DNA of 21,483 nt from a virus (IMGVR_UViG_3300036978_000205:1-21483); one strand, 5' to 3'. Shown: positions 1,804 through 20,377, counted from the first letter of the stretch. Numbers and translations are program-made. The notes: generated by a model from the letters alone, not told the origin.

Positions 1804-1890
1804 AGCAGTCTCCTAGCCTTGCGTCCGGCAAGTGCGGGTAGCGCATCTGCGCCACATCAGTAGAGTAACCCCGATACGGCATGGTGTCAA
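1804..1890 (-). promoter_or_regulatory. promoter/5'-UTR cassette, copy A
   Basis: Sigma-70 type promoter: TTGACA (1890-1885), 17-base spacer, TACTCT (1867-1862), predicted +1 at 1855. The transcript would begin with hairpin 1 (GUGGCGC 1855-1849, loop AGAU, GCGCUAC 1844-1838), then hairpin 2 (CUUGC 1832-1828, loop CGGAC, GCAAG 1822-1818), AGGAG (1814-1810) and ATG at 1803. Compared with the other copies, hairpin 1 has an A-U pair replaced by G-C, a paired change. The -35 is a perfect consensus, so this is probably the strongest copy. Confidence 0.85.
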
Positions 1891-1923
1891 TAGTTTGGGG
1901 CGGTGATTCCCAAATATTGCAAA

Positions 1924-2349
1924 TTATTTTTTCAAACGCCGAAACAGCGAAAGCGGTATGAATTCACAAGACTCTATGTCTTGCTTGTCATTGCGGTCTT
2001 TGCGTCCCGCCTGTGCGCGTGGAAACAATTTGTCGGTGAATGTAAACAGCGCAGCGGCATCAGGAAATCCAACAAGCAAATGCGCTCCGCAATTCATTTC
2101 ACGCGATAGCCGTCTAAGACCATCAGATTTCTTGGCTGCAATCATGTAGTTGGGAAATCGGTAGAACGAAAGTTGCCGAACTTTCACTTCAACTATTGCG
2201 GTGATCTTGCCGTCACGCTTGAATTGAAAGTCATACGGCTCAAGACGATCTGTTTCAATGCAATCTAATTCCGGGCGTTCAGCCTGAAGCAATGCAATCA
2301 ACTTTCGTTGTGCTTCTCTGTTGTGTGGCTGTTCGTAGATCGGGCGCAT
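1924..2349 (-). CDS. PD-(D/E)XK nuclease-like protein
   Basis: A 141-residue protein with a D40 ... E54-V-K56 pattern (YDFQFKRDG then IVEVKVR), matching the core of PD-(D/E)XK nuclease folds in which the acidic residues bind the metal and the Lys takes part in catalysis. A conserved-looking segment after the core (YRFPNYMIAAKK) and a late beta strand (GAHLLVGF) fit the same fold. The ATG at 2349 lies only a few bases after the U-tract of a strong terminator hairpin (2354-2402) and no normal Shine-Dalgarno is present, so expression is probably low or regulated. The assignment rests on motif pattern; the fold is inferred, not proven. Confidence 0.65.
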   Translation of the reverse strand: MRPIYEQPHNREAQRKLIALLQAERPELDCIETDRLEPYDFQFKRDGKITAIVEVKVRQLSFYRFPNYMIAAKKSDGLRRLSREMNCGAHLLVGFPDAAALFTFTDKLFPRAQAGRKDRNDKQDIESCEFIPLSLFRRLKK

Positions 2350-2353
2350 AAAG

Positions 2354-2402
2354 AAAAACCCCCGCGCATGGGTGACCCGTCTAGGAACCTGATGCGCGGG
2401 GG
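2354..2402 (-). terminator. strong intrinsic terminator/hairpin before the nuclease gene
   Basis: On the minus strand an 11-bp perfect stem (2402-2392 with 2369-2359, CCCCCGCGCAT paired with ATGCGCGGGGG) is followed by TTTTT (2358-2354). The 22-base loop itself contains small dyads (GGGTCACCC and AGGTTCCT). It lies downstream of the Erf gene and ends five bases before the next ATG, so it may terminate the Erf unit or act as an attenuator for the nuclease gene. Confidence 0.85.
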
Positions 2403-2436
2403 GAGACTGACTCGCCCGTGTGGGGCGGTCAATGGC

Positions 2437-3216
2437 TTAGAATTCTAGTTTAGATATTTCTTCAGGTCTTGTGATGTGGGTAATTTCAAGGATCAACCCA
2501 TTGCGTGTCAATCCAAGGGTAGCCATTTCCCCGGCAATTGATTCAAGGTAGTCCGCGTATCCCTCTACAAGCGTTGAGGCGTAGCAAGCCCCGTGAATTG
2601 CACTTGTCACAGATATGGCGGTGGGCTTTCCTTTCCTCCGGACAACCTTGTTGACTCGTACTAGGAACTCGCCATCATCCGGGAACGCGTCTGCTACCCC
2701 GGATGCCGGGGCAGGGTTGGCTTCAGGCGCGGTTTCAGCCGTTAGGGCTGCTTGGGGCTTCCCCTGAGCGGGCGCGGCTCCACGGGCGTTCTGTGGCTTG
2801 AACGGCTTGCGGTCTTCTGTAGGGGCTTGGCGGTCAGAATCGCCATCGTCATCTTCTCCCACTAGTCCACAGAAACTGATTAGTGAATACCTTCGCAAGT
2901 AAGAAACCGTTGAACCTATCTGCTGAACCGTGCTGCGGTCGGGCAGCGGGTACGACAGGGTTTCAGAGATCCACTCGCCGCTTGAATGGGCAAGGGTCGT
3001 AGTGACCGCTACAAAGTTCCCATCCATTGTGACGGGCTGTAGAACGGCGATCCCTTGTTTGGCTAATGGTGACCGCACGGCGTTCAACACAGCCGCAAGA
3101 GTGGCAAACCTGCTCTTGTAATGCGGGTTGATCCCGTCTAGTTCAGGGTTCTTAATTTCCAAATTTGCTTTTGCCATCGCGCTTGCAATGGTTCCAATCG
3201 TTTCGCTTCGTTGCAT
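2437..3216 (-). CDS. erf: Erf-family single-strand annealing recombinase
   Basis: The 259-residue protein matches the ERF family (P22 Erf, single-strand annealing protein for phage recombination and genome circularisation). Diagnostic segments are the N-terminal helices (to about residue 60, ending KQGIAVLQP), the strand TTTLAHSSGEW (73-82), and the core QQIGSTVSYLRRYSL (98-112) followed by an acidic run GEDDDGDS. Residues about 127-185 form an Ala/Pro-rich linker, then a distinct C-terminal domain (about 186-259) of mainly beta character. The start at 3216 has GGAG seven bases upstream. It is third in a unit with 3520-3882 and 3219-3515, and a strong terminator follows it. Confidence 0.9.
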   Translation of the reverse strand: MQRSETIGTIASAMAKANLEIKNPELDGINPHYKSRFATLAAVLNAVRSPLAKQGIAVLQPVTMDGNFVAVTTTLAHSSGEWISETLSYPLPDRSTVQQIGSTVSYLRRYSLISFCGLVGEDDDGDSDRQAPTEDRKPFKPQNARGAAPAQGKPQAALTAETAPEANPAPASGVADAFPDDGEFLVRVNKVVRRKGKPTAISVTSAIHGACYASTLVEGYADYLESIAGEMATLGLTRNGLILEITHITRPEEISKLEF

Positions 3217-3218
3217 AA

Positions 3219-3515
3219 TTACTCCGCTTTCGTGTTTAATAGATTTCTCAATCTCGCAATCGTAAAAGCCTGTGCGCCCGCTTGCAATGATTGCAAAATC
3301 ATCAAGTGCAATTTCTGTCGATCTTGATCATTCAGCAAAACATAATCGGGATACAGCAATTTGTGGGTTTCATATTTCCCTTCAAATCCCGCTTTGTAGC
3401 CAAACTCAAAGTCGCGCAGGATCTGTTGTTTCATGTCAGGGAAAACCTCCCTTGGATCTCCCCGTACCAAACTTCGGTACATCTCCAACGCAAACTTTTC
3501 TTCTTCTGTCAACAT
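3219..3515 (-). CDS. hypothetical helical protein, 98 aa
   Basis: Starts at ATG 3515, four bases after the stop of the upstream gene; no strong Shine-Dalgarno is visible, so reinitiation is likely. The N-terminus (MLTEEEKFALEMYRSLVRGD) and the rest are predicted helical, with a C-terminal segment of basic and hydrophobic residues. It sits just ahead of the erf gene (two-base gap), so a role in recombination or as an accessory to Erf is possible, but this is only from position. Family not recognised. Confidence 0.7.
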   Translation of the reverse strand: MLTEEEKFALEMYRSLVRGDPREVFPDMKQQILRDFEFGYKAGFEGKYETHKLLYPDYVLLNDQDRQKLHLMILQSLQAGAQAFTIARLRNLLNTKAE

Positions 3516-3519
3516 GGCA

Positions 3520-3882
3520 TTAGTCCATTTCTACAGGTAGACCCTGCATCCAAGAGGGGGTCGCGTCAACGCGTGGCGCAACTCGACAATGACTTTCGTT
3601 CAAAACCTTTACCGCGTTCTCTCGTTCTCTTTCAATTTCCTCTTTCATCAATTGAAACTTTCGCATCATTGCGTAGTTCTTTGCTATCACAATCCGTCCT
3701 GACCACTCAATCCTTTCTTGCATAGTAAAGATGTCAGCCGCACACGCAAACGAAATCAATGCGTTAGCAGTACCAACGGCGGCAATGCGACTTGCATCGC
3801 TTAAATTGCCTTCAGCGATTGTTCCTTCAGCAGTCGCAAGTCGCATTTTCATAATTGCAGCCATTTCGTTTTGTGTCTTCAT
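3520..3882 (-). CDS. hypothetical helical protein, 120 aa
   Basis: First gene of the Erf transcription unit. The ATG at 3882 (MKTQNEMAAIMKM) lies behind AAGGAG, directly after cassette copy B. The frame also runs in from 3927 through the hairpins, but that reading is an accident of the UTR. The protein is almost entirely helical, Ala- and Met-rich at the start (about residues 1-60) and strongly charged in the middle (MKEEIERERENAVK). No catalytic or metal-binding motif is visible. Function unknown. Confidence 0.8.
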   Translation of the reverse strand: MKTQNEMAAIMKMRLATAEGTIAEGNLSDASRIAAVGTANALISFACAADIFTMQERIEWSGRIVIAKNYAMMRKFQLMKEEIERERENAVKVLNESHCRVAPRVDATPSWMQGLPVEMD

Positions 3883-3971
3883 ATCAGTCTCCTTGTGTTC
3901 CCCGTCCGGGGGTTGCGGGTAACGCATCTTGCGTCACATCCATAGAGTAGCACCGATTAGTCGGGGTGCAA
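3883..3971 (-). promoter_or_regulatory. promoter/5'-UTR cassette, copy B
   Basis: TTGCAC (3971-3966), 16-base spacer with dyad CCGACTAATCGG, TACTCT (3949-3944), predicted +1 at 3937. Hairpin 1 is GUGACGC (3937-3931), loop AAGAU, GCGUUAC (3925-3919). Hairpin 2 is CCCC (3912-3909), loop CGGAC, GGGG (3903-3900). AAGGAG (3894-3889) and ATG 3882 follow. Hairpin 2 keeps pairing although its stem differs from every other copy. Confidence 0.85.
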
Positions 3972-4011
3972 GGGCTTGCAGCCGTAAATATCTAAAGATT
4001 GCTAGATTCTT

Positions 4012-4221
4012 TTAGGTGTCCGGATTCAACTTCTTGTGATATTTAAGAAAAGCAATAACGGCTTTGTTGTATTTGCTCTCGGCTTCTTTGAGTATTTCAG
4101 TTTCGGGTAAAGCCTCAACAGCCTTGCGATGGGCAATCTTGGCGTTTGTGTATTCCTCTACGGCATCAGATTTCAACGCCAAAAGGTGAGTCAATCTTGG
4201 ATTGGAATTAAATCTAATCAT
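4012..4221 (-). CDS. small helical protein, 69 aa
   Basis: Starts at ATG 4221 overlapping the upstream stop as ATGA; only a weak GAGG-like site is present, so translation is coupled. The protein is one long amphipathic helix (about residues 15-62, e.g. KSDAVEEYTNAKIAHRKAVEAL), probably a coiled coil. Second and last gene of the unit starting at 4421. Function unknown. Confidence 0.7.
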   Translation of the reverse strand: MIRFNSNPRLTHLLALKSDAVEEYTNAKIAHRKAVEALPETEILKEAESKYNKAVIAFLKYHKKLNPDT

Positions 4222-4421
4222 GGCTTTGCCTCAATCTTGAAGTCGCAAGTAATCGTGCCGCCGTACTTTCGCTGCCAATCACGCGCTTGCTTTTCTGTCA
4301 CGCTAATGAGCATTTGGGCAGGAGCCCATCGGTCAGCATCAGAGTGCCAATTCCAAATCCGGTTGCTGCCAAGCATCGCGTCTGCAATCGTTCTAAAGGT
4401 CGCAAGTTGTACATCGTTCAT
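4218..4421 (-). CDS. small hypothetical protein, 67 aa
   Basis: ATG at 4421 (MNDVQLATFRTIADAML), seven bases after AGGAG and immediately downstream of cassette copy C. A TTG two codons upstream is in frame but lies inside the spacing to the ribosome site. The protein has helices at each end and a Trp-rich middle (RIWNWHSDADRWAP), ending in a basic beta-like tail (GGTITCDFKIEAKP). Function not recognised. Confidence 0.8.
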   Translation of the reverse strand: MNDVQLATFRTIADAMLGSNRIWNWHSDADRWAPAQMLISVTEKQARDWQRKYGGTITCDFKIEAKP

Positions 4422-4508
4422 GGTCAATCTCCTGTGTCCGCGTCCGGCGGTTCGGGTAACGCATCTTGCGTCACATCATGATTGTAACACCGATTGGTCG
4501 GGGTGCAA
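4422..4508 (-). promoter_or_regulatory. promoter/5'-UTR cassette, copy C
   Basis: TTGCAC (4508-4503), 16-base spacer with dyad CCGACCAATCGG, TACAAT (4486-4481, the best -10 of the set), predicted +1 at 4474. Hairpin 1 is GUGACGC (4474-4468), loop AAGAU, GCGUUAC (4462-4456). Hairpin 2 is CCGC (4450-4447), loop CGGAC, GCGG (4441-4438). AGGAG (4433-4429) and ATG 4421 follow. Confidence 0.87.
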
Positions 4509-4512
4509 GTAT

Positions 4513-5037
4513 TTAGTTCCCTGTTCCTAGAATTCTTCCCGGCATAAATCCTCCGCATGGGTTTCGTACAGCGCGTCTAACTGTCGCGGTCAAGGCGTTT
4601 GTTTTCTTGCCTTTGATCAAACCGCCCATCATGCAGTTCTGAAACACGGGTTCACCCGCGCTGTCTCTGTAGGCAAATCGTGCCTCAAAGTTTTCAAGTC
4701 GCAGCGTGTCGCCTTTCTTAATCTTGGGCAGGTCAATTTCTTTTCCGCTTGGGACTTCAATTTGTCCATATGCCAACCACCCGTCTGCGGTCAACATCAA
4801 GACTCGTACTACGCTCACTTTCTCAGGGGAGGTAGCAATCCATGTCCGTAAGCCTCTGCGCGTTGCCTGTGATTTGTGACGGTAAATGTGCGTCTGCGTC
4901 ACCCATGCTCGTACTACCGTGGCAGAGATGTCAAAGATGGCGTTCATGGGCTTGGAAACATCTTCGACTCCATCGCCAATCCAAACAAACTCTGCGGGGT
5001 TGTTCACAATCTTGTAGTTGTCAGGTGGGGCGTACAT
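4513..5037 (-). CDS. hypothetical phage protein, 174 aa
   Basis: The ATG at 5037 (MYAPPDNYKIV) sits seven bases after AGGAG, directly downstream of cassette copy D; a longer reading from 5106 runs back through the UTR hairpins and is rejected. The protein is beta-rich with many short strands (VVRAWVTQTHIY, VRVLMLTADGWLAYGQIEV), giving an OB- or barrel-like impression, and a basic C-terminus. The rightward gene 8482-8874 has a similar run of features (ALFETHHGN..., VVLLMDEGWLLWGVI), so the two may be distant relatives: each has an R/K-rich strand, a segment of the form VLLMxxxGWLxxG, then a PxIKxGxxx loop. Function unknown. Confidence 0.8.
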   Translation of the reverse strand: MYAPPDNYKIVNNPAEFVWIGDGVEDVSKPMNAIFDISATVVRAWVTQTHIYRHKSQATRRGLRTWIATSPEKVSVVRVLMLTADGWLAYGQIEVPSGKEIDLPKIKKGDTLRLENFEARFAYRDSAGEPVFQNCMMGGLIKGKKTNALTATVRRAVRNPCGGFMPGRILGTGN

Positions 5038-5124
5038 GGTCAATCTCCTATGTCCGCATCCGGCGGCTCGGGTAACGCATCTTGCGTCACATCCAAAGAG
5101 TAGCACCGATCAATCGGGGTGCAA
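5038..5124 (-). promoter_or_regulatory. promoter/5'-UTR cassette, copy D
   Basis: TTGCAC (5124-5119), 16-base spacer with the perfect dyad CCGATTGATCGG, TACTCT (5102-5097), predicted +1 at 5090. Hairpin 1 is GUGACGC (5090-5084), loop AAGAU, GCGUUAC (5078-5072). Hairpin 2 is CCGC (5066-5063), loop CGGAU, GCGG (5057-5054); this is the only copy with U in the last loop position. AGGAG (5049-5045) and ATG 5037 follow. Confidence 0.87.
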
Positions 5125-5172
5125 GTCATTGCAGCCATCATTTTCTAGAGAATGTGAAAAAGATTTCCAAGT

Positions 5173-5209
5173 AAAAACCCGGCGCGGATCTTGCGATCAA
5201 CACGCCGGG
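5173..5209 (-). terminator. intrinsic terminator after the DUF932 gene
   Basis: On the minus strand CCCGGCG (5209-5203) pairs with CGCCGGG (5184-5178), with an inner GATC/GATC pairing in the loop, followed by TTTTT (5177-5173). It lies about 50 bases past the stop of the DUF932 gene and ahead of cassette copy D, separating the two units. Confidence 0.85.
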
Positions 5210-5260
5210 CTTCCGGGGGCATAGATGGGAGCCGTCCGTGGCTACCCGTTTTGAATCCTA

Positions 5261-6274
5261 TCAGGCTTGCAGCACCAAATCAAACGCTTTCGCTGTGGCA
5301 TCCGCAGTCGTGCCATCCCAACGGGCGTAGTTGACTGTGTTGGCATCCTTGCTTCGGATTGCTTGGTGGGCGCGGTAGTGTTGAATTGCGCTTGTCGCTG
5401 CATTCACCGCCGTCCATGCGGACATCCCGTAGGTGCTGCCTTCCATATCCATTTTTTCATGGCAATGCGCCAAGAAACGCAATCCCTTTTCACGCTTGCG
5501 CTCTTCCCAACCATTGGTCGGGTCAATCACAAACTTGCCGTCAAGGGTTTCAAGGACATCCATCCACAACTGCTTCGCCTGTGAAACGGTCATGGACTTA
5601 TGGGCGAGTGCTGTAGCAATCTTACGACCCTTCTCAATATTCCCGTACCACCGGGAAATGTCAGTTTGCAATTCCTCAACACGCGCAGAAATGTTGTGCG
5701 TATGTCGGAAGCACCAACCATTCTTAGCCGCATCAATTGCGCTGTGGAATGTGTTGGAACAAACAACACGGACGCTCGTAGGAATCACGCGCATCGCCAT
5801 CGTGCCGTCATGGGAATTGGCAATCATCAGGTACGGACTCGCAAAATCTTCAAGCCCGGTCATGTCAATAGTTGGAGCCCGCAGCAACATCCAAACACGC
5901 CGCCCGCCTTGAATGGTTCCTGCTGACTCAACTTCAACGCCACGGTCTTCTCCCGCCCTGCGGAATGCCCAAGCCAACTCAGCAAGCGTGGAGTTCTGCA
6001 CCGGGCTGTATGAACTACCAACAACTCCAAGGATGCTGTAGTCATCGCTACGGACAAGCATCTTGTGTGAGTCAGTAGAAATACGCTGTGGCTCTTGCGA
6101 ATCCAAATCAAAGCCACAAACCATTGACTCAGACTCAAGAACATTCCATTCCATCTTGGCAATTCGCAAAGCCGCAAACGGGTTTGGGGCTCCCTCAACA
6201 ACAGTTCCCAAACCGTGCCAAGCAGCAGTATTCGCAAAAACCTGTCCGTCATTCTTCTCAATTTCGTGCGCCAT
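5261..6274 (-). CDS. DUF932 family protein (phage/plasmid-like TIGR03299 type)
   Basis: A 337-residue protein with the typical start of the family (MAHEIEKNDGQVF then AWHGLGTVV) and further family-like segments in the middle (PYLMIANSHDGTMAMR, PTSVRVVCSNTFHSA) and late (NAATSAIQHYRAH). The family is widespread in phages and plasmids and its biochemical role is not settled. The start at 6274 is chosen from AGGAG at 6286-6282; the longer reading to 6313 begins within hairpin 1. The gene has its own promoter cassette (copy E) and its own terminator (5173-5209), so it is expressed alone, and is the largest leftward gene. Confidence 0.9.
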   Translation of the reverse strand: MAHEIEKNDGQVFANTAAWHGLGTVVEGAPNPFAALRIAKMEWNVLESESMVCGFDLDSQEPQRISTDSHKMLVRSDDYSILGVVGSSYSPVQNSTLAELAWAFRRAGEDRGVEVESAGTIQGGRRVWMLLRAPTIDMTGLEDFASPYLMIANSHDGTMAMRVIPTSVRVVCSNTFHSAIDAAKNGWCFRHTHNISARVEELQTDISRWYGNIEKGRKIATALAHKSMTVSQAKQLWMDVLETLDGKFVIDPTNGWEERKREKGLRFLAHCHEKMDMEGSTYGMSAWTAVNAATSAIQHYRAHQAIRSKDANTVNYARWDGTTADATAKAFDLVLQA

Positions 6275-6363
6275 AACTTGTCTCCTAACCCTGCGTCCGG
6301 CAGGTGCGGTCACCGCAATCTTGCGGCAACAAACAATCTAACCCCGGTTCACAGGGAAGTCAA
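6275..6363 (-). promoter_or_regulatory. promoter/5'-UTR cassette, diverged copy E
   Basis: TTGACT (6363-6358), 17-base spacer with AACCGGGGTT partly overlapping the -10, TAGATT (6340-6335), predicted +1 at about 6328. Hairpin 1 is diverged but still pairs: CCGCA (6326-6322), loop AGAU, UGCGG (6317-6313). Hairpin 2 is CCUGC (6304-6300), loop CGGAC, GCAGG (6294-6290). AGGAG (6286-6282) and ATG 6274 follow. Same plan as the other copies with little shared sequence outside the loop and the SD. Confidence 0.8.
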
Positions 6364-6701
6364 GTAGCGGGGGCTCAATTTCAAACATTTTTTGCAGTAT
6401 TTAATTTCAACAGGTCTGCGGGCTGTTTTTAGTCTGCACGGTGAGCGCAGAGAGAAATGACCCCTCGCGGGGTCACAACTAACTTCAGCCCTCACGGAGC
6501 CGCGCTTCAAGTTAATGCCACGATCCCAAGCAGTATCAGTTCTTGGTTCCATTTCGCTGTTCGTCTACAGCCGCTGCCATCGTGGAGGAGCGCAAGTGTC
6601 AACAGCACACACAAGGCGCGAGGTAGGGTCAAGCCCCGCGTCTACACCGATCCCTCCCAACCGTGCCGGAGGGGCATTGCAACATTCTTGTAGCGCACTA
6701 C
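6364..6701. other. divergent non-coding region with hairpins
   Basis: No convincing gene lies here; the open frames lack ribosome sites and family-like composition. Visible structure: an AT-rich patch (about 6377-6412) with the direct repeat AATTTCAA (6377-6384 and 6403-6410); a perfect 7-bp hairpin TGACCCC/GGGGTCA (6458-6475); and a 6-bp hairpin CCCTCC/GGAGGG (6652-6673). It separates the leftward and rightward gene sets, which is where phages often hold replication origins or control sites, but nothing here proves that role. Confidence 0.5.
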
Positions 6702-6729
6702 TTCACCCCGGTGAATTGAGCGGTAGAAT
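6702..6729 (+). promoter_or_regulatory. rightward promoter, distant relative of the cassette promoters
   Basis: TTCACC (6702-6707), 16-base spacer, TAGAAT (6724-6729), predicted +1 near 6736. The segment ACCCCGGTGAAT resembles the spacer of cassette copy F (CCCCGGTGAAT at 7366-7373 region), and the spacing equals copies B, C, D and F. The -35 is only a partial match to TTGACA. No hairpin-plus-SD leader follows; instead a terminator lies about 60 bases downstream. Confidence 0.5.
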
Positions 6730-6735
6730 GTAATC

Positions 6736-6825
6736 GCTCTAGGTTTCGCAGCCGCACACTTTAACCACGATGTCAAAGAGTGCAAGGGCAAAGACCGCCA
6801 TATGTAAAAATATCGGCGGTTTTTT
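6736..6825 (+). ncRNA. candidate small RNA (promoter to terminator, about 90 nt)
   Basis: The predicted promoter (6702-6729) and the intrinsic terminator (6794-6825) bracket about 90 bases with no credible open frame. This could be a stand-alone phage small RNA or an attenuated leader for the gene at 6870. I cannot match it to a known RNA family; a tRNA-like reading was tried and failed. Confidence 0.4.
6794..6825 (+). terminator. intrinsic terminator ahead of gene 6870
   Basis: ACCGCC (6794-6799) pairs with GGCGGT (6815-6820); ATAT/ATAT pairing extends the stem past a single bulged C, with loop GTAAAA. TTTTTT (6820-6825) follows. A clear rho-independent terminator on the plus strand, 44 bases before the next start codon. 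Confidence 0.88.
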
Positions 6826-6869
6826 CATTGAAGCCTTGCGTTGTCAATGTTCATTGCTAAGGTGCGGGC

Positions 6870-7373
6870 ATGATGCCAACAACAACAAATGAGAAGCCTA
6901 CATGGAATGACACATGGCAAATGATTCGCGGGCTTTGGACTGAGTGGGATCCAACTCCCCAAACGACTAAGTGGCTGTGGGAGCGATGGATGCCACTCCA
7001 CCAAGACAAATTAATGGATGCGGTGAAGCAACACCGGATGGAAGCCGCATCTGAAAAATCCAATCGACCTGTGTTCAACAGAATCAATGACCTCTACATT
7101 GAACGAACTGTTCAACAACAACTTGTAGTCCACACGCGAGTAGAAAAAGAAAAAATCCAACCGCTGTCTGACAATGATTTCAAGGCGTGGGATATATGGG
7201 CTGCAAAGGTCATGGCAACAGCAACAGCCGAAGAAATCAAAGCGGCTCAAGAGAGTGTTGGTCTGCTTTCAATAACGACTCAAAGAGTTCTCGCTATCGC
7301 TGTTGATCTATACCGGGAAAAGAATCTAACAAAATCTAGAAAAATACCGCCCCGCCCCCTTGCGCCCCGGTGA
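6870..7373 (+). CDS. hypothetical protein, possible replication accessory
   Basis: A 167-residue protein; two adjacent ATGs (6870 and 6873) lie behind AAGG. The first half is Trp-rich and helical (WQMIRGLWTEWDPTP, WLWERWMPLHQDKLMDAVKQH) and ends with a segment of the type RPVFNRINDLY. This layout (helical domain, P-x-x-x-x-I, then a charged helical tail) recalls small phage proteins that load or regulate replicative helicases, but the similarity is weak and only from pattern. The C-terminus is basic and Pro-rich. Its stop lies inside the promoter of cassette copy F, so the next gene is transcribed independently. Confidence 0.7.
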   Translation: MMPTTTNEKPTWNDTWQMIRGLWTEWDPTPQTTKWLWERWMPLHQDKLMDAVKQHRMEAASEKSNRPVFNRINDLYIERTVQQQLVVHTRVEKEKIQPLSDNDFKAWDIWAAKVMATATAEEIKAAQESVGLLSITTQRVLAIAVDLYREKNLTKSRKIPPRPLAPR

Positions 7374-7447
7374 ATCGGTGTTACTCTACTGATGTGACGC
7401 AAGATGCGTTACCCGAACTTGCCGGACGCAAGAACAGGAGACTGACC
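7360..7447 (+). promoter_or_regulatory. promoter/5'-UTR cassette, copy F (rightward)
   Basis: TTGCGC (7360-7365), 16-base spacer with the imperfect dyad CCGGTGAATCGG, TACTCT (7382-7387), predicted +1 at 7394. Hairpin 1 is GUGACGC (7394-7400), loop AAGAU, GCGUUAC (7406-7412). Hairpin 2 is CUUGC (7418-7422), loop CGGAC, GCAAG (7428-7432). AGGAG (7436-7440) and ATG 7448 follow. The only plus-strand copy; it overlaps the 3' end of the upstream gene. Confidence 0.87.
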
Positions 7448-7816
7448 ATGACACAAGTACTTACGATTCTACGACTGCAACCACTTACTGCCCGCGAACA
7501 CGGTTACACGCACGCGAACCATATTGGCTACAGCGATGTGAATCCGTACGAGATTGTGCGGTTTGTGAGTGACAAGTGCATTGAGATCCGCGCCATGAAT
7601 GCTGAACACGCGCCGGATTGGAAGCCTGACTTTGTTGCAGGTGGGTTCTCCGCGATTTGCACGAACAACGGACGGCAGCATTGGGTTTGCACAAGTAACC
7701 CTGACGCACCAATCATCCGTATACGACTCTCCAAGAACAAGGGATGGCGATGCGCGAGTAAGGCTTCTTACCGCCTAAGCCATGAGCCGATTAAACACTA
7801 CGACTACAACTTCTAA
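7448..7816 (+). CDS. conserved phage protein of unknown function, 122 aa
   Basis: Starts at ATG 7448, seven bases after AGGAG, right after cassette copy F. The sequence has a distinctive pattern I associate with a widespread uncharacterised phage family: GYSDVNPYEIVRFVSDKCIEIR fragments near residues 27-49, DWKPDFVAGGFSAICTN around 57-75, a strand pair with RIRLSKNKGW, and the C-terminal ending YDYNF. The fold looks beta-rich. No catalytic residues are known to me. It is the first gene of a unit with 7840, 8300 and 8482. Confidence 0.85.
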   Translation: MTQVLTILRLQPLTAREHGYTHANHIGYSDVNPYEIVRFVSDKCIEIRAMNAEHAPDWKPDFVAGGFSAICTNNGRQHWVCTSNPDAPIIRIRLSKNKGWRCASKASYRLSHEPIKHYDYNF

Positions 7817-7839
7817 ACCCTGACTAGAAAGGATTCCAA

Positions 7840-8316
7840 ATGCAACACGGACACAAAATGAGCGCACCCAAGGTGATGTTGCGAGGCGCGGCAAGAAATT
7901 CCAAGTTGGCGCGGACGGTTGCCAAGATGATTGATGACAATTTAGAAGCGATGTTGAATTGCAACGGACGAGTACGAGCCCGAATAGATCGCTACAACGA
8001 ACGCGAAATTGAACTGATTAAGATCCACAACGAGGCATACATTGCGGTTCTAGAGCAAGGTGGCATGATTGAACACCGCCGAGCAATGGAACTATTGCGT
8101 GCAAATGACCGCATGGCTAATGCTGCGGTGGCGAGTTGGGAGAATCTGCAAAATGAGTTTTACAAGTACGAGAACCTTGGAGATGGCAAGGGTGACTTTG
8201 AGGCTTGGGCAAACGAACGATCCAACGAGCCTGAGCCTGAAATAGAAATGCCTCCTTGCACATGGACTGCGAATTATTTGAAGTCTTTGGAGGCTAGTAA
8301 TGTTTCCGCAAAGTGA
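7840..8316 (+). CDS. hypothetical helical protein, 158 aa
   Basis: ATG at 7840 with AAAGGA upstream; an in-frame Met at residue 7 (MSAPKVMLRG) is an alternative. The protein is mostly long helices with a basic first third (RGAARNSKLARTVAKMIDD) and a regular charged middle (RYNEREIELIKIHNEAYI), compatible with a coiled coil. The C-terminal third is acidic (NEPEPEIEMPP). No known domain recognised. Confidence 0.75.
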   Translation: MQHGHKMSAPKVMLRGAARNSKLARTVAKMIDDNLEAMLNCNGRVRARIDRYNEREIELIKIHNEAYIAVLEQGGMIEHRRAMELLRANDRMANAAVASWENLQNEFYKYENLGDGKGDFEAWANERSNEPEPEIEMPPCTWTANYLKSLEASNVSAK

Positions 8317-8485
8317 AATTGAGTTCAAAGAAGCAATGCCGCGTGATACTGAGGATGTTTTTGTACGAGCCGCATATTGGTTGATTTGGGATGACCGCTA
8401 CGGATGCCCGCAAGGTCTGCCCGCCCGGAAGGTTATGAAATGCTTGAGGGATTTAGTAGTGCAGACAGCGGAGAATTCCAAATGA
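8300..8485 (+). CDS. small hypothetical protein, 61 aa
   Basis: ATG at 8300 follows GGAGG and overlaps the end of the previous gene by 17 bases. The short protein contains an aromatic helix (VFVRAAYWLIWDDRYGCP) and a basic tail. Its stop overlaps the next start as ATGA. Function unknown; kept because of the good ribosome site and coupling on both sides. Confidence 0.65.
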   Translation: MFPQSEIEFKEAMPRDTEDVFVRAAYWLIWDDRYGCPQGLPARKVMKCLRDLVVQTAENSK

Positions 8486-8874
8486 CCGTTGACCGCACCG
8501 GGTGGCTAAGAAAGCCCGTGCGCGGAATAGTTACCTCTGTGAAGCCCTATGCCACCCATGCGCTGTTTGAAACGCATCACGGCAACCACAGACGCAGTTG
8601 GACGAAGATCCACAAGGACTACGCGCAGCCGATTACCCGACTGTGCGTAGTTCTCTTGATGGATGAGGGGTGGTTACTTTGGGGAGTCATTGGAGGGGGA
8701 TTGAAGGGGCTTGATCCATTGCCGCCCATCAAGGTTGGGCAACGAATTCAAATTGATTCAGCCTGTTTGAAGCAACTTCAAAGCGAGTTGTATGTGGACA
8801 CTTCGTACGCTGACAGGATTATTCATGGCAAAGTGATTGTGCAAAATAAGGAATCATTTGCACCCCGTATGTAG
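8482..8874 (+). CDS. hypothetical phage protein, 130 aa
   Basis: Starts at ATG 8482 (MTVDRTGWLRKPVRG) overlapping the previous stop as ATGA, with GGAG about ten bases upstream. Beta-rich, with segments VRGIVTSVKPYATHALFETH, VVLLMDEGWLLWGVI and PPIKVGQRIQID that parallel parts of the leftward protein at 4513-5037, so the two may be distant paralogs. Last gene of the unit from cassette copy F; a promoter-like sequence follows at once. Confidence 0.75.
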   Translation: MTVDRTGWLRKPVRGIVTSVKPYATHALFETHHGNHRRSWTKIHKDYAQPITRLCVVLLMDEGWLLWGVIGGGLKGLDPLPPIKVGQRIQIDSACLKQLQSELYVDTSYADRIIHGKVIVQNKESFAPRM

Positions 8875-8877
8875 ACA

Positions 8878-8900
8878 CGCCCCTCATTCGGGGGTATCAT
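8878..8900 (+). promoter_or_regulatory. promoter for the 8908 operon, with dyad in spacer
   Basis: The -10 is TATCAT (8895-8900); 17 bases upstream is TAGACA (starting near 8872, overlapping the previous stop codon), five of six matches to each consensus hexamer. The spacer contains the dyad CCCC-TCATTC-GGGG. Predicted +1 falls at about 8907, next to the ATG at 8908, so the transcript would be leaderless or nearly so. The same dyad could also form an RNA hairpin, but no U-tract follows. Confidence 0.6.
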
Positions 8901-8907
8901 AAGGTCA

Positions 8908-9171
8908 ATGAAGAAAATCAAAGTTAAGTCCCCTAGTGCGATCAGAGACGCACTTTTGGAAAGGCTCAAGGAGCAAGGGCGATCAAAGTATCGGTTTGGA
9001 ATAGATTGCGTCATCGCTGAAATCTGCCAACACCACACCGTTGACGAAGTCCTTTCAACCACCTCAAAAAAGCAGCGAGTCCCGTCAGTAGCCGTGGCGA
9101 TAGCAATGCTTGAAGCAGCAGATCTTGAGTTATTTATTCAGCCAATCAAAAGGAAGCCCCGTGAAAATTGA
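8908..9171 (+). CDS. HTH (Xre/Cro-like) candidate regulator, 87 aa
   Basis: A small basic protein with a layout like a Cro/C1-type helix-turn-helix: an N-terminal helix (SAIRDALLERLKEQGRSKYRFG), a middle corresponding to helices 2-3 (about 31-53), then PSVAVAIAMLEAADLELFIQP (roughly 58-78), which closely recalls the last helix and C-terminal strand of small Xre-type regulators. The recognition helix region is atypical, so DNA binding is inferred. First gene of the ParB / PP-loop block, overlapping the next gene by 11 bases. It could regulate its own promoter, whose spacer holds a dyad. Confidence 0.6.
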   Translation: MKKIKVKSPSAIRDALLERLKEQGRSKYRFGIDCVIAEICQHHTVDEVLSTTSKKQRVPSVAVAIAMLEAADLELFIQPIKRKPREN

Positions 9172-9733
9172 AGATGTATCGTTAGCCAACCTGACCAATG
9201 ACCCTTCAAATGTGCGGAAGCATGATGAGGCAAACCTGTCTGCCATCAAGGCTAGTTTGGCGAAGTTTGGTCAACAAAAGCCTGTAGTAATCAATAGCGC
9301 GGGAGTCGTGGTCGCGGGGAATGGAACTGTCATGGCAGCGCGGGCTTTAAGTTGGAAAACGATCAAGGCAATTAAGACTGATCTAACCCCATCAATGGCA
9401 ATTGCTTATGCCATCGCCGACAACCGATCCGCTGAGTTGGCTACTTGGGATGACGAGGCTCTGCGGCAGCAAATGGCAGCACTCCAAATTGAAGACGAGG
9501 ATCTAGCCGCAGCCACCGGGTTTGACTACAACGCGCTTCAAAAGATCGCGGATGGTGACACCGCCCCGACAGAAAAAAGTCTAAACCCCGTTATTTCGTT
9601 TACGATCATCTTTGACACGGATGAGCAGCAAGAGGCATGGTTTGAATTTGTCCGGGAATTAAAAGACCGTTACCCGGAGGCAGTTACAAACGGGGAGCGT
9701 CTTGCGGCATTCCTTGAGGATCAAGATTCGTGA
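9161..9733 (+). CDS. ParB/Srx-fold N-terminal domain protein
   Basis: Starts at GTG 9161 behind AAGGA. Residues 1-100 match the ParB N-terminal domain: a first strand and LTNDPSNVRKHD, then a helix (ANLSAIKASLAKFGQQKPVVI) and the nucleotide-binding-type motif VVAGNGTVMAA (50-60), followed by AIADNRSAELATWD. The family can be a DNA-binding CTPase, a nuclease or, in phages, often sits with DNA-modifying enzymes. The C-terminal part (about 125-190; ISFTIIFDTDEQQEAWFEF) is a separate small domain often found in phage members. No centromere-like sites or parA are seen, so partitioning is unlikely. Its stop overlaps the next start (GTGA). Confidence 0.85.
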   Translation: MKIEDVSLANLTNDPSNVRKHDEANLSAIKASLAKFGQQKPVVINSAGVVVAGNGTVMAARALSWKTIKAIKTDLTPSMAIAYAIADNRSAELATWDDEALRQQMAALQIEDEDLAAATGFDYNALQKIADGDTAPTEKSLNPVISFTIIFDTDEQQEAWFEFVRELKDRYPEAVTNGERLAAFLEDQDS

Positions 9734-10776
9734 CACGCATCAAGCGGTTCATTGACAAAGATGTGCTTCAAGCCGCCCGTGAGCGGATAGCGCATATCTA
9801 TGACATCTATGACACGGTTGCCGTCTGCTTTTCAGGTGGCAAGGATTCGCTTGTTGTACTCCACCTTGCCTTGGAAGAGCAGCAGAAGCGAGGCATTGAA
9901 AAACTCAAGATTGTGTTTCGTGACGAGGAGTTAATTCCCGACAGCGTTATCAATTTTGTCAATGAGTACAGGCAGCGCAGCGACATTGATATGCAATGGT
10001 TTTGTGTCCCGTTGAAAAGCGCAAAGTACATCCTTGGCAGGACTTATGATTATGTTCAATGGGCTGAAGACAGAACCCATGTCCGTGAAATACCGCCGTG
10101 GTCAATTAGGTCTGACGCGCCCGGTACGGTCTTTGACCAATACACGATGGATGAGTTTGCTTGCAGGGCATACAAAGGGAAAGTCTGCTTGATGACGGGC
10201 ATCCGGGCTTCTGAAAGCCTCATACGGTTCCGCGCATCCGTAAACAAGTTGAACGAGAATTACCTAACAGCCACCGAATCGCGCCGGATCATGTTGGGAA
10301 AACCAATTTACGATTGGGCTGAGAACGACATCTTTAAGTACCTGTTGGATAACAACATAAAGTACGCTCAGTTGTATGACGCTCAATGCATGGCAGGGGA
10401 GTCTTTGAGAGTTTCAACGCCGCTACACGCTGAAGCAGCCAAGAAACTAGACCGTTGGCGCGTACTTGATCCTGAGTTCTATGACCGCGTCTTGCAGATA
10501 TTTCCTGAAGTGTCTGTGCAAGCCCGGTATTGGGGTGACCTTGATAGAGCCGCTTTGGTCAAAGCCTACGGCAGTAACTTTGAATCAATTAGGCGGTATG
10601 TGACTGAGTGCATCACAGACCAAGCACAGCAGGAAATGGCATTGAAGCGATTGAGTGTCATTGAAAACATGGCAATCAAAAGCCCGCGAATCTACCCGCT
10701 TGACTATGTGTTGAAATACATCATTGCAGGGCAATACAAGCGGATGCTGTTGCCCATGCAGAAGGACAAAGCATGA
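9730..10776 (+). CDS. PP-loop ATPase / PAPS-reductase-like protein (IbrA-like)
   Basis: A 348-residue protein with the PP-loop SGGKDS (35-40) of adenine nucleotide alpha hydrolases, followed by FRDEELIPDSV and later GIRASES (157-163), as in the phosphoadenosine phosphosulfate reductase-like family and its IbrA relatives. PIYDW with a following helix and a C-terminal helical domain (about 240-348) resemble the IbrA type. These enzymes adenylate or handle sulfur- or nucleotide-linked substrates; the reaction here is unknown. The few Cys are not arranged as the iron-sulfur cluster of DndC. GTG start at 9730 overlaps the previous stop; its own stop overlaps the next ATG. Flanked on both sides by ParB-like genes, as IbrA is by IbrB. 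Confidence 0.88.
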   Translation: MTRIKRFIDKDVLQAARERIAHIYDIYDTVAVCFSGGKDSLVVLHLALEEQQKRGIEKLKIVFRDEELIPDSVINFVNEYRQRSDIDMQWFCVPLKSAKYILGRTYDYVQWAEDRTHVREIPPWSIRSDAPGTVFDQYTMDEFACRAYKGKVCLMTGIRASESLIRFRASVNKLNENYLTATESRRIMLGKPIYDWAENDIFKYLLDNNIKYAQLYDAQCMAGESLRVSTPLHAEAAKKLDRWRVLDPEFYDRVLQIFPEVSVQARYWGDLDRAALVKAYGSNFESIRRYVTECITDQAQQEMALKRLSVIENMAIKSPRIYPLDYVLKYIIAGQYKRMLLPMQKDKA

Positions 10777-11291
10777 AAAAAGACCCCATTGATCGGATTG
10801 AGTGGCGTGATGTAAACACCCTCAACGCCAACGATTACAACCCAAATGTCGTTTTGACGCAGGAGATGCGTCTGCTTGAGCGGAGCATCCTTAAAACCGG
10901 GTGGGTGCAGCCTGTTCTTGTCACAGGTGACGGGTTGATTATTGACGGGTTTCACCGCGTCACCCTGTCCAAAATGTCTGACCAACTCAAAAAGGTCTAC
11001 AAGGGAATGGTTCCATGTGCGGTCATGAACATTGACCGACCCGCAGCCATGATCTTGACCATCAGGATGAACCGGGCAAAAGGAAGCCATGTTGCGCTTC
11101 GCATGAGCGACATTGTGTTTGAATTGGTGAACACGCACAACATTGATCCGCAGCAGATAGCACTTGACATTGGCGCAACCCCGGAAGAAATTGAGTTACT
11201 TCTTCAGCAGGATGTGTTCAAAGCCAAGAAGATTGCTGATTGGAAATACAGCAAGGCGTGGGTTCCCGCAGAAACCAAACTGCGAAAATGA
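10773..11291 (+). CDS. IbrB-like ParB-domain protein
   Basis: A 172-residue protein with LNANDYNPNVV (17-27), IDGFHR (57-62) and MNRAKGSHVALRMSDIV (99-115), close to the arrangement of IbrB (ParB fold, DGFHR and NRARGSH segments). The C-terminal helical part (about 120-172; IDPQQIALDIGATPEEIELLL) continues into SKAW, also typical of IbrB. IbrA and IbrB are encoded side by side in Escherichia coli elements, where they act as regulators of the eib genes; their biochemistry is not established. Here the pair is phage-borne. ATGA overlaps at both ends show tight co-translation with the PP-loop protein and the GNAT protein. Confidence 0.85.
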   Translation: MKKDPIDRIEWRDVNTLNANDYNPNVVLTQEMRLLERSILKTGWVQPVLVTGDGLIIDGFHRVTLSKMSDQLKKVYKGMVPCAVMNIDRPAAMILTIRMNRAKGSHVALRMSDIVFELVNTHNIDPQQIALDIGATPEEIELLLQQDVFKAKKIADWKYSKAWVPAETKLRK

Positions 11292-13968: not shown

Positions 13969-15135
13969 ATGAGCAACACTCGCAACGACATCGCAAAGCG
14001 TCTTGGACTAGTGCAGCCTAAAACCAAAATGGGTCGCGCTGAAAAGGTAATGACGGACGGCAGCGTCCACCTTGACTTCAAGGAAGCCAAGGAATGGCTT
14101 TCAAGCGTTAGTGATGACTCTTTGAAGTACATCATTTCTGATGCAAACGCCGCAGCCAAGGCAATGGGCGCAGACGGCAAGAAGTTCAACTACTACACAG
14201 ACCTCGCGTTGACGGCAGGACAGATTCTGCGAAGTACCAAGCGCGGCGGTCATCGACTCAATAGTTCTCTTGAAGCCAAGTCTTCCCGCCCCGGCGCAAA
14301 GGCGAAGTTTGCGGTAATTTATTCAGATTCTGCTCCCGGAGATCCACAGGTTACCCCACGACAATACCCGCGAAGAGTTGAAGTTCATTTTGCTATAGGC
14401 AAAACCGACTTTCTCTATTCGGTCAAGTATTTTGAAAATGGGAAATTGATTGGTGTGCATGAAAACCTATCGCGTGAGAAAGCGTTAGAAGACGCAAAGT
14501 CATTTATTCGTGCGGGACACCGTTACTCCCGCCCCGGCGCGAAAACGAAGTTCTTGCGAATTGACCCAAACAGCATCAACAGTTGGGAAATTCAAAGAGG
14601 TCGCAAGATCACTTCTGCGGGCAAGGGAACATGGGCATTTACTGATCCCTATGGCAAACTTGTAATTGTGCCAATCCTTGGGACATTCAAGGAAGCCGTT
14701 GCTTGGCTAAACAAGAACGGCGATTACAAAGGATCTAACGATTACTACAAGGTTGAAATGTCCCGCCCCGGCGCGAAGGCGAAGTTTGAAACCTATCCCT
14801 CAGATGAGGCTGCACCTACAGGGCAGGGCATACCGCAGTCAGCAAAGGATCTAGAAGAGTCTATTGCTTTTTTGACAGACAGAATTAATCGCCTCAAGAA
14901 GGGTTTGTTGGCTTATCCAAAAGCACTTAGCAAGGCAAGTGGATATGAAAAAGAGAGTTTGCTTCATCAACTTGAGAGGCAAAAGAACGACATAAAGAAT
15001 TTAGAAAAAGATGTTTTGACTTCTAAGGCTCTTTTAGCAAAACTCAAAAGCAACCCGGACATGAATCGCATCAATGGCAAGGGCAGATTGATGAAGTTGC
15101 AACGCTCTGTTCGCCCCGGCGTGAAGGTCAAGTAA
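13969..15135 (+). CDS. modular protein with repeated RPGAKAKF motifs
   Basis: 388 residues of no known family. The N-terminus MSNTRNDIAKRLGLVQP is shared with the protein at 19790-20377. The chain is cut into modules by SSRPGAKAKF-type motifs at residues 106-114, 187-195, 265-273 and, ending the protein, VRPGVKVK at 381-388. Module 1 (18-105) is helical; module 2 (115-186) and 3 (196-264) are alpha/beta with different sequences; module 4 (274-380) is a coiled coil rich in Leu/Lys. Composition is basic. No Shine-Dalgarno is clear; a weak promoter-like TTGAGC-16-TAGCAT ends six bases before the ATG. It lies between the terminase and head genes, which suggests a virion component, perhaps internal, but that is inference. 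Confidence 0.85.
   Translation: MSNTRNDIAKRLGLVQPKTKMGRAEKVMTDGSVHLDFKEAKEWLSSVSDDSLKYIISDANAAAKAMGADGKKFNYYTDLALTAGQILRSTKRGGHRLNSSLEAKSSRPGAKAKFAVIYSDSAPGDPQVTPRQYPRRVEVHFAIGKTDFLYSVKYFENGKLIGVHENLSREKALEDAKSFIRAGHRYSRPGAKTKFLRIDPNSINSWEIQRGRKITSAGKGTWAFTDPYGKLVIVPILGTFKEAVAWLNKNGDYKGSNDYYKVEMSRPGAKAKFETYPSDEAAPTGQGIPQSAKDLEESIAFLTDRINRLKKGLLAYPKALSKASGYEKESLLHQLERQKNDIKNLEKDVLTSKALLAKLKSNPDMNRINGKGRLMKLQRSVRPGVKVK
14284..14310 (+). repeat. RPG motif repeat 1 (SRPGAKAKF)
   Basis: Nine codons, residues 106-114 of the 13969 protein. The DNA is also conserved between copies (CCCGCCCCGGCG core). Confidence 0.85.
14527..14553 (+). repeat. RPG motif repeat 2 (SRPGAKTKF)
   Basis: Residues 187-195 of the 13969 protein; TCCCGCCCCGGCGCGAA is shared with repeat 3. 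Confidence 0.85.
14761..14787 (+). repeat. RPG motif repeat 3 (SRPGAKAKF)
   Basis: Residues 265-273 of the 13969 protein, identical in protein to repeat 1. Confidence 0.85.
15109..15132 (+). repeat. RPG motif repeat 4 (VRPGVKVK, C-terminal)
   Basis: The last eight residues (381-388) of the 13969 protein; the motif ends the protein where the Phe would be. Confidence 0.75.
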
Positions 15136-18619: not shown

Positions 18620-19740
18620 TGGCAAAAAGGTCTATTGCCGATCTGTTTCGCGCCGTCTATGCAGACGGGGACAAGGCGTACCGCGCAGCGGTAGCGGCTC
18701 AGATCACCAATGACAACCCTGCGGAAGCGTGGGACAGATGGAAGAGCAACACGGCTGCGCTGCTGTTGATTTCATGGGCGGCGGGCGCACACGCAAGCCT
18801 ATACGCTGCAAAGGTTAAGACCGTCAAGAAGCCTCAACCTGTCAAGTTTGACCGTGACATCCCTGAGTTCTTGCTTCGTTTTGAAAGTGGTGCAGCCCGA
18901 CAGGTCGTTGACCGATACATGGAATTGCTCCCGATTACGAGGGAGCGTTGGAACGCGCTTGTGGACTACGCGTTTCAGGCTGCGGACGAGATGACCAAAG
19001 ATGAGGCGGCAACCGCGCTCCTAAAGATGGTTGAGCGCAGTCCTGACCTTGCCAAGATTGTGTTCCCGGCGGCAATGGGCGCGAAACCAAAGCCCGTCCC
19101 CGGTATGAAGATTGTGACCGGGTTGCCTGAAGAGGTGCAGAAGCGGCGTACTCCCGGCGTTCAAGCGGTAGTCCAAGGCACATTCTTTGTCACAGGCATG
19201 ACGCAGAAGCAGGTGGAATCAACGCGTAACCTGTTAGCAAAGACCATTAGGGGTGAGGTTACGACCTCTGTTGCCGGAAAAAAACTCCTTGAATTGGGCG
19301 TGGGCGATTTCGTTCAACAGTCTGTGATTGCTACAGGTACAGACTTGACGGCTGCGCGGCTTGAAACCGTCTACCGGACAAACTTGAACCGGGCGCAAAC
19401 CCAAGGGCGGCTAGACATTTGCCGGGACGATACGGTCAAGGCGTTTGTGCCTGTCATGCAGTTCCGGGCTACCAAGGACAACCGGACTCGCCCAAGCCAC
19501 AAGGCAATGAACGGCTATGTCGCAACGGTTGAGCAGATTGACAATCAGGGAATTCCCGCCCCGCTTGGCTTCAATTGCCGTTGCTCTTGGACTCCCGTTT
19601 CCCTGTTTACGGCAGTATCCAATGGATGGGCAACGGAAGACGGCAGACCAAATTACGATGCCATTCGCAAGCACAACGGGCTGCGTCAAAATCTCATTGA
19701 CAGCGGTGCAGTCCCTGACCCCGGTTTCATCTCAGGATAA
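18619..19740 (+). CDS. minor head protein, Mu gpF-like
   Basis: 373 residues from ATG 18619, sharing one base with the portal stop (TAATG); an ATG at 18610 is an alternative. The C-terminal third has the Phage_Mu_F signature: YRTNLNRAQTQGR, then DNRTRPSHKAMNG (about 287-299) and GFNCRCSW (317-324), a set of Arg, His and Cys residues typical of the family. Proteins of this family are minor capsid or prohead morphogenesis components. The N-terminal half is helical with an Ala-rich stretch (LLLISWAAGAHASLYAAK). Ends 41 bases before the second RPG-motif gene. Confidence 0.92.
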   Translation: MAKRSIADLFRAVYADGDKAYRAAVAAQITNDNPAEAWDRWKSNTAALLLISWAAGAHASLYAAKVKTVKKPQPVKFDRDIPEFLLRFESGAARQVVDRYMELLPITRERWNALVDYAFQAADEMTKDEAATALLKMVERSPDLAKIVFPAAMGAKPKPVPGMKIVTGLPEEVQKRRTPGVQAVVQGTFFVTGMTQKQVESTRNLLAKTIRGEVTTSVAGKKLLELGVGDFVQQSVIATGTDLTAARLETVYRTNLNRAQTQGRLDICRDDTVKAFVPVMQFRATKDNRTRPSHKAMNGYVATVEQIDNQGIPAPLGFNCRCSWTPVSLFTAVSNGWATEDGRPNYDAIRKHNGLRQNLIDSGAVPDPGFISG

Positions 19741-19743
19741 TCC

Positions 19744-19765
19744 ACCACTACATATAGTGGTTTCT
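19744..19765 (+). terminator. weak terminator-like hairpin after the gpF-like gene
   Basis: ACCACTA (19744-19750), loop CATA, TAGTGGT (19755-19761) followed by TTCT. The stem is good but the T-run is short, so it may be an mRNA-stabilising or partial terminator. Confidence 0.45.
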
Positions 19766-19789
19766 AAGAAAGACGATACTATGAGCAGC

Positions 19790-20377
19790 ATGAGCAACAC
19801 TCGTAAGGACATTGCAGCGCGTCTTGGATCAGCGCAGCCTAATGATCGTCCCGGCAAAAAGGCAAAGTTTGGTCGTATTGATTCAATGCTTGATTATGCA
19901 AAAAAACTTGATAGCCAACTTGATTCAATTAGGTCGGATATGTTTCTGTTGCAGACTCGCCGTCTTGGAAGGGTAATAGGTGGCTTGATAAGAGCCCAAA
20001 AGTCAAACGATGAATCACAACTTGATGCATTGTCAAATGAATTGAATTTCATTCGATCAGAAGCCAATAAAGTTTGTAATGAGAAGTTTTCTCGCCCCGG
20101 CGTGAAGGCGAAGTTTGAAGCAACCCCCGCTCTTAAAAACTTTGTTCGGCAATGGAATCGCCTTGAAGATCAAAATTATCACCCCGAATGCGTTCTGTTG
20201 ATTTCCAAATTTATTGGCACTCCGCAAGATGTTGCTAATTCTCAACGGCTAGTCAAGATAATGGACAAGGGGTTTGATCCGTCTGCGAATGTAGAACTAG
20301 GCGAAATTAGAGATCGCTTGTGGAAACAAGTTCGTGCAAAGTATGGAAATGAAACAGTCAACAAGTTGATGGGATAA
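19790..20377 (+). CDS. second RPG-motif modular protein, paralog of 13969
   Basis: 195 residues from ATG 19790, the start that keeps the shared N-terminus MSNTRKDIAARLGSAQP; ATG 19781, nine bases earlier, is an alternative with a slightly better AAGAAAG upstream. The first motif DRPGKKAKF is at 19-27 and SRPGVKAKF at 101-109. Between them is a coiled-coil-like helical module (SMLDYAKKLDSQLDSIRSD); after the second is an unrelated helical module (110-195). The modules do not resemble those of the 13969 protein, while the tag and motifs do. It lies between the gpF-like gene and the protease/scaffold gene. Confidence 0.85.
   Translation: MSNTRKDIAARLGSAQPNDRPGKKAKFGRIDSMLDYAKKLDSQLDSIRSDMFLLQTRRLGRVIGGLIRAQKSNDESQLDALSNELNFIRSEANKVCNEKFSRPGVKAKFEATPALKNFVRQWNRLEDQNYHPECVLLISKFIGTPQDVANSQRLVKIMDKGFDPSANVELGEIRDRLWKQVRAKYGNETVNKLMG
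19844..19870 (+). repeat. RPG motif repeat 5 (DRPGKKAKF)
   Basis: Residues 19-27 of the 19790 protein, directly after the shared N-terminal tag; the DNA is more diverged than in the other copies. Confidence 0.75.
20090..20116 (+). repeat. RPG motif repeat 6 (SRPGVKAKF)
   Basis: Residues 101-109 of the 19790 protein; CGCCCCGGCGTGAAGG is shared at DNA level with repeat 4. Confidence 0.85.

Follow-up and report, generated by a model that had tools for sequence, protein, structure and literature searches.

The DNA analysed here, hereafter the window, is a whole 21,483-bp virus record (IMGVR_UViG_3300036978_000205), and it carries six copies of a cassette in which a promoter is followed by two short hairpins, an AGGAG Shine-Dalgarno sequence (SD) and a start codon. 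The leader is an undescribed structured RNA family that is tied to a promoter class and to a candidate regulator. That an RNA element exists is near certain, and the cassette probably acts as a shared on/off and translation switch. Specifically, we give about even odds (a probability of roughly 0.5) to a reading in which it serves a phage regulon at both levels of expression, combining an operator with a leader that would cap the 5' end of the transcript and tune its translation.

Over all copies, the 5' part of the cassette runs from a -35 element (TTGC/TTGAC) through a spacer, which in most copies holds a dyad, to a -10 element (TAnnnT), six nucleotides and hairpin 1 (HP1). The 3' part comprises a CCG linker, hairpin 2 (HP2), 3-6 nt, AGGAG, about 6-8 nt and ATG, and the typical sequence around the SD is NNAGGAGAYTGA. 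HP1 has 5-10 bp and a loop that mostly reads AAGAY on a C-G closing pair, with exceptions that include CGGAT in copies G008f and G010f, UCGGAU in G002 and ANNNY forms in G011. HP2 has 4-6 bp and the loop CGGAY in every copy except G010h, which has CGUAU. The CCG between the hairpins is invariant, lying inside or beside the outer HP1 pairs in long-stem copies. With stems of 4-10 bp and a linker of 3-7 nt, the two hairpins together span about 35-45 nt; whole leaders have predicted folding energies of -15 to -30 kcal/mol, and the SD is mostly unpaired or weakly paired in the predicted folds. An earlier note on this DNA had described the two hairpins, which stand, but it missed that their loops are not incidental (AAGAY in HP1, CGGAY in HP2), and it overlooked the invariant CCG.

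The evidence for RNA structure comes from 13 named stem pairs, scored in 26 leaders and in a set of 18 leaders that had not been selected for pairing. Among the 26, both-sided (compensatory) changes occur at 8 of the 13 pairs, with a covariation score that was reached by none of 500 shuffles. In the unselected 18, where the search pattern itself dictated the innermost HP1 pair, which is hence uninformative, 94% of cells are paired as compared to 80% in shuffled and 24-47% in slid structures, and six of the 13 pairs covary. Wobble pairs (G-U and U-G) occur often, at two positions with GU in 11 and UG in 5 of 24 rows, and every leader lies on the sense strand ahead of an SD. The HP2 loop CGGAY and the linker CCG stay fixed over diverse lineages while the stems vary freely.

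The cassette is not confined to the window. With two covariance models (R1 and R2) combined for the counts, 33 copies were found in nine phage records, 27 of them in the eight records besides the window. The window holds six, G005 five, G008 seven, G010 eight, G011 three, and G002, G004, G012 and G017 one each; once near-identical records are collapsed, these represent about four lineages (window/G005, G008/G010, G002/G017/G004 and G011/G012). Searches that ignored pairing led to the same element: a degenerate pattern without a pairing requirement recovered the leader in three other records, and a scan for promoter plus spacer dyad, blind to the hairpins, added two more leader-bearing records (L132 and L133), whose leaders scored E values of about 1e-11 under a model that predates the discovery of these records. 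A scan of the collection seeded on a helix-turn-helix (HTH) protein, described below, returned six records, all of them leader-bearing and one newly found. The covariance-model check that the earlier note had suggested, in which a lack of further copies would have spoken against its proposal, came out in favour of that proposal, and the view of one repeated cassette forming a phage regulon is supported.

Other searches delimit this distribution. The exact core (GATGTGACGCAAGATGCGTTAC) had no match in viral contigs. A pattern scan of bacterial genomes gave ten matches, none with the promoter or the hairpins and all judged to be chance, and a hairpin-only scan gave 11 matches outside the known records, apparently all in coding sequence and none scored by the model. 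Among eighty loci fetched through a homologue of gene A, the gene behind leader copy A, the leader was present only in records already known as carriers. No leader was found with either model in the terminase/DUF932 relatives G001, G003, G006, G013 and G014 or in the more distant G007, G015 and G016; some of these records are fragments that do not include the early region. Two different leaders had no DNA match in 50,697 records of isolated phages; the carriers are a phage group without cultured members. Their host is likely actinobacterial, as judged from gene relationships: the PAPS-reductase and ParB pair beside the HTH gene has its nearest relatives in Arthrobacter phages (50.6% identity), and the DUF932 protein of the window is nearest to mycobacteriophages (30%). 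The HTH protein was absent from 396 genomes of the phylum of one actinobacterial genome, and the host assignment thus stays inferred. In a distant phage, L013 (IMGVR_UViG_3300044837_000080), positions 5691-8534 contain that phage's own multi-copy repeats of 100-157 nt, in which a terminator-like hairpin is joined to a dyad (TGACATCCCGTCAA).

Within the window, five copies lie on the minus strand and one on the plus strand, with coordinates that the earlier note had given correctly to the base; with copy F as blastn query, the other five are recovered at E values from 3e-23 to 2e-5. In these copies an HP1 of 7-9 bp and an HP2 of 4-5 bp are followed by 3-6 nt, AGGAG, 6-7 nt and ATG. On the minus strand, copy A has its promoter (TTGACA-17-TACTCT) at 1862-1890, HP1 (7 bp, loop AGAT) at 1838-1855, with the outer base as predicted transcription start (+1), HP2 (CTTGC-CGGAC-GCAAG) at 1818-1832, AGGAG at 1810-1814 and ATG at 1803. 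Copy B has its promoter at 3944-3972, with the spacer dyad CCCCGA-CTAA-TCGGTG, HP1 (8 bp, loop AAGAT, closing pair C-G) at 3919-3937, HP2 (CCCC-CGGAC-GGGG) at 3900-3912, AGGAG at 3889-3893 and ATG at 3882. Copies C and D also have dyad-bearing promoters, at 4481-4509 and 5097-5125, followed by HP1 at 4456-4474 and 5072-5090, HP2 at 4438-4450 (CCGC-CGGAC-GCGG) and 5054-5066 (CCGC-CGGAT-GCGG), AGGAG at 4429-4433 and 5045-5049, and ATG at 4421 and 5037, respectively. In copy E, a promoter with a weaker dyad (TTGACT-17-TAGATT, 6335-6363) precedes HP1 (9 bp, loop AGAT) at 6309-6330, HP2 (CCTGC-CGGAC-GCAGG) at 6290-6304, AGGAG at 6282-6286 and ATG at 6274. On the plus strand, copy F comprises a promoter with spacer dyad at 7359-7387, HP1 at 7394-7412, HP2 (CTTGC-CGGAC-GCAAG) at 7418-7432, AGGAG at 7436-7440 and ATG at 7448. 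About 500 bases at 6365-6870, between copy E and a plus-strand gene at 6870-7373, hold no convincing gene; they contain G+C-rich hairpins, and an origin or attachment site is possible there.

The position of HP1 relative to the promoter is regular. Its outer base, at 1855 (A), 3937 (B), 4474 (C), 5090 (D), 6330 (E) and 7394 (F), is the seventh base past the -10 in A, B, C, D and F, with six intervening bases, and two bases closer in E, with four, as had been noted before. In the examined copies that have a promoter, the HP1 stem starts 6 nt (range 4-8) past the -10 while the stem sequence varies, and it keeps its register with the predicted +1.

The promoters themselves are weak as generic sigma-70 sites, which qualifies their earlier designation: a consensus scan reported copy E as the sole leader promoter, and the total of promoter-like sites in the region is not above that of shuffles. 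Their reality follows from conservation across copies and phages and not from consensus score. Most copies also share a feature missed before, a G+C-rich dyad CCCCGA-n4-TCGG(G/T)G between the -35 and the -10, which is likely an operator, probably for a repressor. Promoter, spacer dyad and leader are found in combination time and again, and the simplest explanation is that their units are under common transcriptional control.

A natural candidate for the regulator is a gene that had also been overlooked. The plus-strand gene at 8908-9171 encodes an 87-aa protein, putatively of HipB/XRE-like HTH type, with orthologues in all nine leader-bearing records. Its AlphaFold2 model has a predicted local distance difference test score (pLDDT) of 82.5, and Foldseek ranks HipB and other XRE-type HTH proteins highest (probability up to 0.97, E no lower than 0.23); the protein has no Pfam match and no sequence match in the PDB. 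With E values of this size, its assignment to the HipB/XRE repressors is a lead, and the protein is a candidate regulator of the leaders. The promoter of the gene (TAGACA-17-TATCAT, 8872-8900, plus strand) bears a spacer dyad, CCCC-n6-GGGG, and the start codon lies 7 nt downstream; in 9 of 9 records the start codon follows the same kind of -10 by 6-8 nt, so that the HTH mRNA is predicted to be leaderless. Since this indicates where the promoter class probably starts, the +1 proposed earlier at the first base of HP1 gains independent support, although it remains a prediction.

From these elements we infer how the cassette might work, from transcription start and dyad binding to mRNA protection and translation. 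A phage regulator, most likely the HTH protein, would bind the spacer dyad and thereby switch the promoters of early and accessory units together. Transcripts would start at the first base of HP1, so that the 5' end would sit in a stem from birth, shielded from 5'-end-dependent decay; HP1 suits such a shield because its stem sequence is free, its loop loosely kept and its 5' register fixed. HP2 with its CGGAY loop, the CCG and the adjacent AGGAG are kept by sequence and therefore suit a recognized or folded translation element, which would control ribosome access in a sequence-specific manner. This element could act as a compact fold, with CCG paired to the CGG of the HP2 loop or to the GG of the SD, or be recognized by a factor that acts in trans. 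The first pairing could form a pseudoknot of 3 bp, whose loops would measure 2-3 and 2 nt, and several minimum-energy folds contain the second. The regulator's own leaderless mRNA would escape the translational layer.

Several observations weigh against this two-level switch. The invariance of CCG and of the HP2 loop places both the pseudoknot and the CCG-SD pairing beyond the reach of covariation, and the CGUAU loop of G010h disrupts one of the three pseudoknot pairs. Copies A, E, G008a and G010a and the high-GC records have a poor dyad, so that one protein for all copies is not assured. For the HTH protein, even the best Foldseek E value (0.23) is weak, and its co-occurrence with the leader may reflect shared descent alone. 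Finally, two orthologous copies, G008c and G010c, have no promoter: they are operon-internal, starting 6 nt past the point where the upstream gene ends with its stop codon, and keep both hairpins, which means that the leader is retained away from primary 5' ends.

Among the alternatives, it is possible, if doubtful, that HP2 is bound by an RNA-binding protein, from phage or host, which would repress or activate translation throughout the regulon, following the logic of coat proteins or RegA. The fixed loop, the covarying stem and the location 3-6 nt upstream of the SD would fit, as would the HP1 loops that at times take the HP2 form (those of G008f, G010f and G002), but no candidate RNA-binding protein was identified and no leader lies on a recognizable autoregulated binder. 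We regard as unlikely a device for mRNA stability or expression strength only, in which the hairpins block 5'-end-dependent decay and insulate the ribosome-binding site with no regulator at the RNA level. The register of HP1 with the predicted +1, its free stem sequence, the stability of the leaders and the mostly accessible SD in predicted folds speak for it; CGGAY and CCG, fixed across lineages despite freely changing stems, and the retention of both hairpins in the promoterless copies speak against it. By itself, the 5'-end protection invoked in the earlier note accounts for the position of HP1 but not for the HP2 loop, the CCG linker or G008c and G010c. A more specific proposal, which we consider distinctly unlikely, is that HP2, CCG and SD are the target of a phage-encoded trans-acting factor that sets translation of the leadered regulon while the leaderless HTH mRNA escapes; if true, the phage would possess a switch that treats its messages differently according to whether they are translated with or without a leader. 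A cis- or protein-dependent antiterminator after each promoter is highly improbable. Two hairpins directly past a promoter do recall HK022 putL (PMC9378689) and the ANTAR dual stem-loops (PMC8164766), but the leader of about 40 nt has short perfect stems, ends in an SD, heads short units and exists in promoterless copies, and the 26 leaders contain neither ANTAR-type A1/G4 hexaloops nor boxA. An element acting as DNA only, through a cruciform or protein-bound dyads, can be nearly discounted, since the common G-U pairs, the covariation and the sense-strand placement of all elements before an SD outweigh the spacer dyad upstream of the predicted transcript and the precedent of the ESAS of cluster K phages, which were judged to be DNA sites (PMC3203893).

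The two-level switch would act on units of the non-structural region. Copy E heads the DUF932 gene, copies A, C and D head small unknown genes, copy B heads a small gene followed by an Erf-like annealing protein and a PDDEXK nuclease, and copy F heads the plus-strand unit starting at 7448. The leader is kept on orthologues: DUF932 (65% identity; window, G005, G008 and G010), gene A (37-39%; window, G008 and G010), gene F (67%; window and G005) and gene C (46%; window and G010); in G011, it heads a gene whose product starts with MAHEI. G008 (L027) has the same early module and ParB/PAPS-reductase genes as the window but a different terminase, indicating that the regulon travels with the early module; the same comparison suggests that early and packaging modules have been exchanged. 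Genomes with as many as eight copies provide a near-isogenic leader set for testing the effects of 5' hairpin, linker and SD, with mRNA life and translation as readouts. Provided that the host assignment is correct, the cassette would also be a portable one for expression work in actinobacteria.

The surrounding genes offer further observations. Gene A (1432-1803; ENYGAHxWDGxGECPxYWKFKGG) represents a phage protein family that is very common, with 518 relatives in viral contigs (including L053-L131) and no Pfam or PHROGs match in this analysis. At 9110-11291, genes for a ParB-like nuclease, a PAPS-reductase-like protein and another ParB-like protein follow one another, the first two ordered as in Arthrobacter phages. 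Two virion-region proteins (13969-15135 and 19517-20377) repeat the motif (S)RPGAKAKF every 75-100 aa or so, as do relatives (L009, L011 and L012); the repeats might be linker or processing sites.

Compared with known systems, the leader stands apart. Rfam 15 gave no match at the gathering cut-off in the window (best sub-threshold E 1.9, 16.2 of 45.5 bits), and the earlier statement that no described phage leader has this arrangement holds in the Rfam and isolated-phage searches, the nearest precedents being SAS/ESAS and putRNA, discussed below. CsrA/RsmE sites present GGA in an ANGGAN hairpin loop next to the SD. The HP2 loop likewise carries GGA near the SD, but as a CGGAY pentaloop, with ANGGAN at HP2 in 0 of 26 leaders and no GGA in HP1 of most copies. 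The boxA (YGCTCTT) of lambda nut sites is absent from the 26 leaders, in a scan aimed at boxA. The ompA leader has a stabilizing 5'-terminal stem-loop; with transcription from the predicted +1, the phage leader would likewise have a stem at the extreme 5' end, but it adds a sequence-specific second hairpin and a shared operator. ANTAR-target RNAs, common in actinobacteria, are dual hairpins with a linker of 2-25 nt, often at the ribosome-binding site, which require an ANTAR protein and hexaloops with A1 and G4 (PMC8164766). The phage leader resembles them in its dual hairpins with fixed loop bases and its linker of 3-7 nt, within that range, but A1/G4 hexaloops occur in 0 of 26 leaders for HP1 and HP2. 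HK022 putRNA also places two stem-loops immediately past a phage promoter; it measures about 70 nt, folds into two long interrupted stems with a triplex, acts on RNA polymerase and occurs twice per genome with no SD attached (PMC9378689), dimensions that the 35-45 nt of the present hairpins do not reach. The start-associated sequences (SAS and ESAS) of cluster K mycobacteriophages (Pope et al. 2011, PMC3203893) are likewise repeated at the starts of many, mostly non-structural phage genes, contain AGGAG and are kept on orthologues; half of the SAS copies have an extra upstream dyad (PMC3203893). However, the SAS is a fixed 13-bp sequence at the start codon, GGGATAGGAGCCC, which the present SD region does not match, and the ESAS are 17-bp inverted repeats without RNA covariation (PMC3203893), whereas the present leader has two short covarying hairpins, fixed loops and a coupled promoter. 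Among phage precedents, SAS/ESAS thus come nearest in how they are distributed, but not in how they are built.

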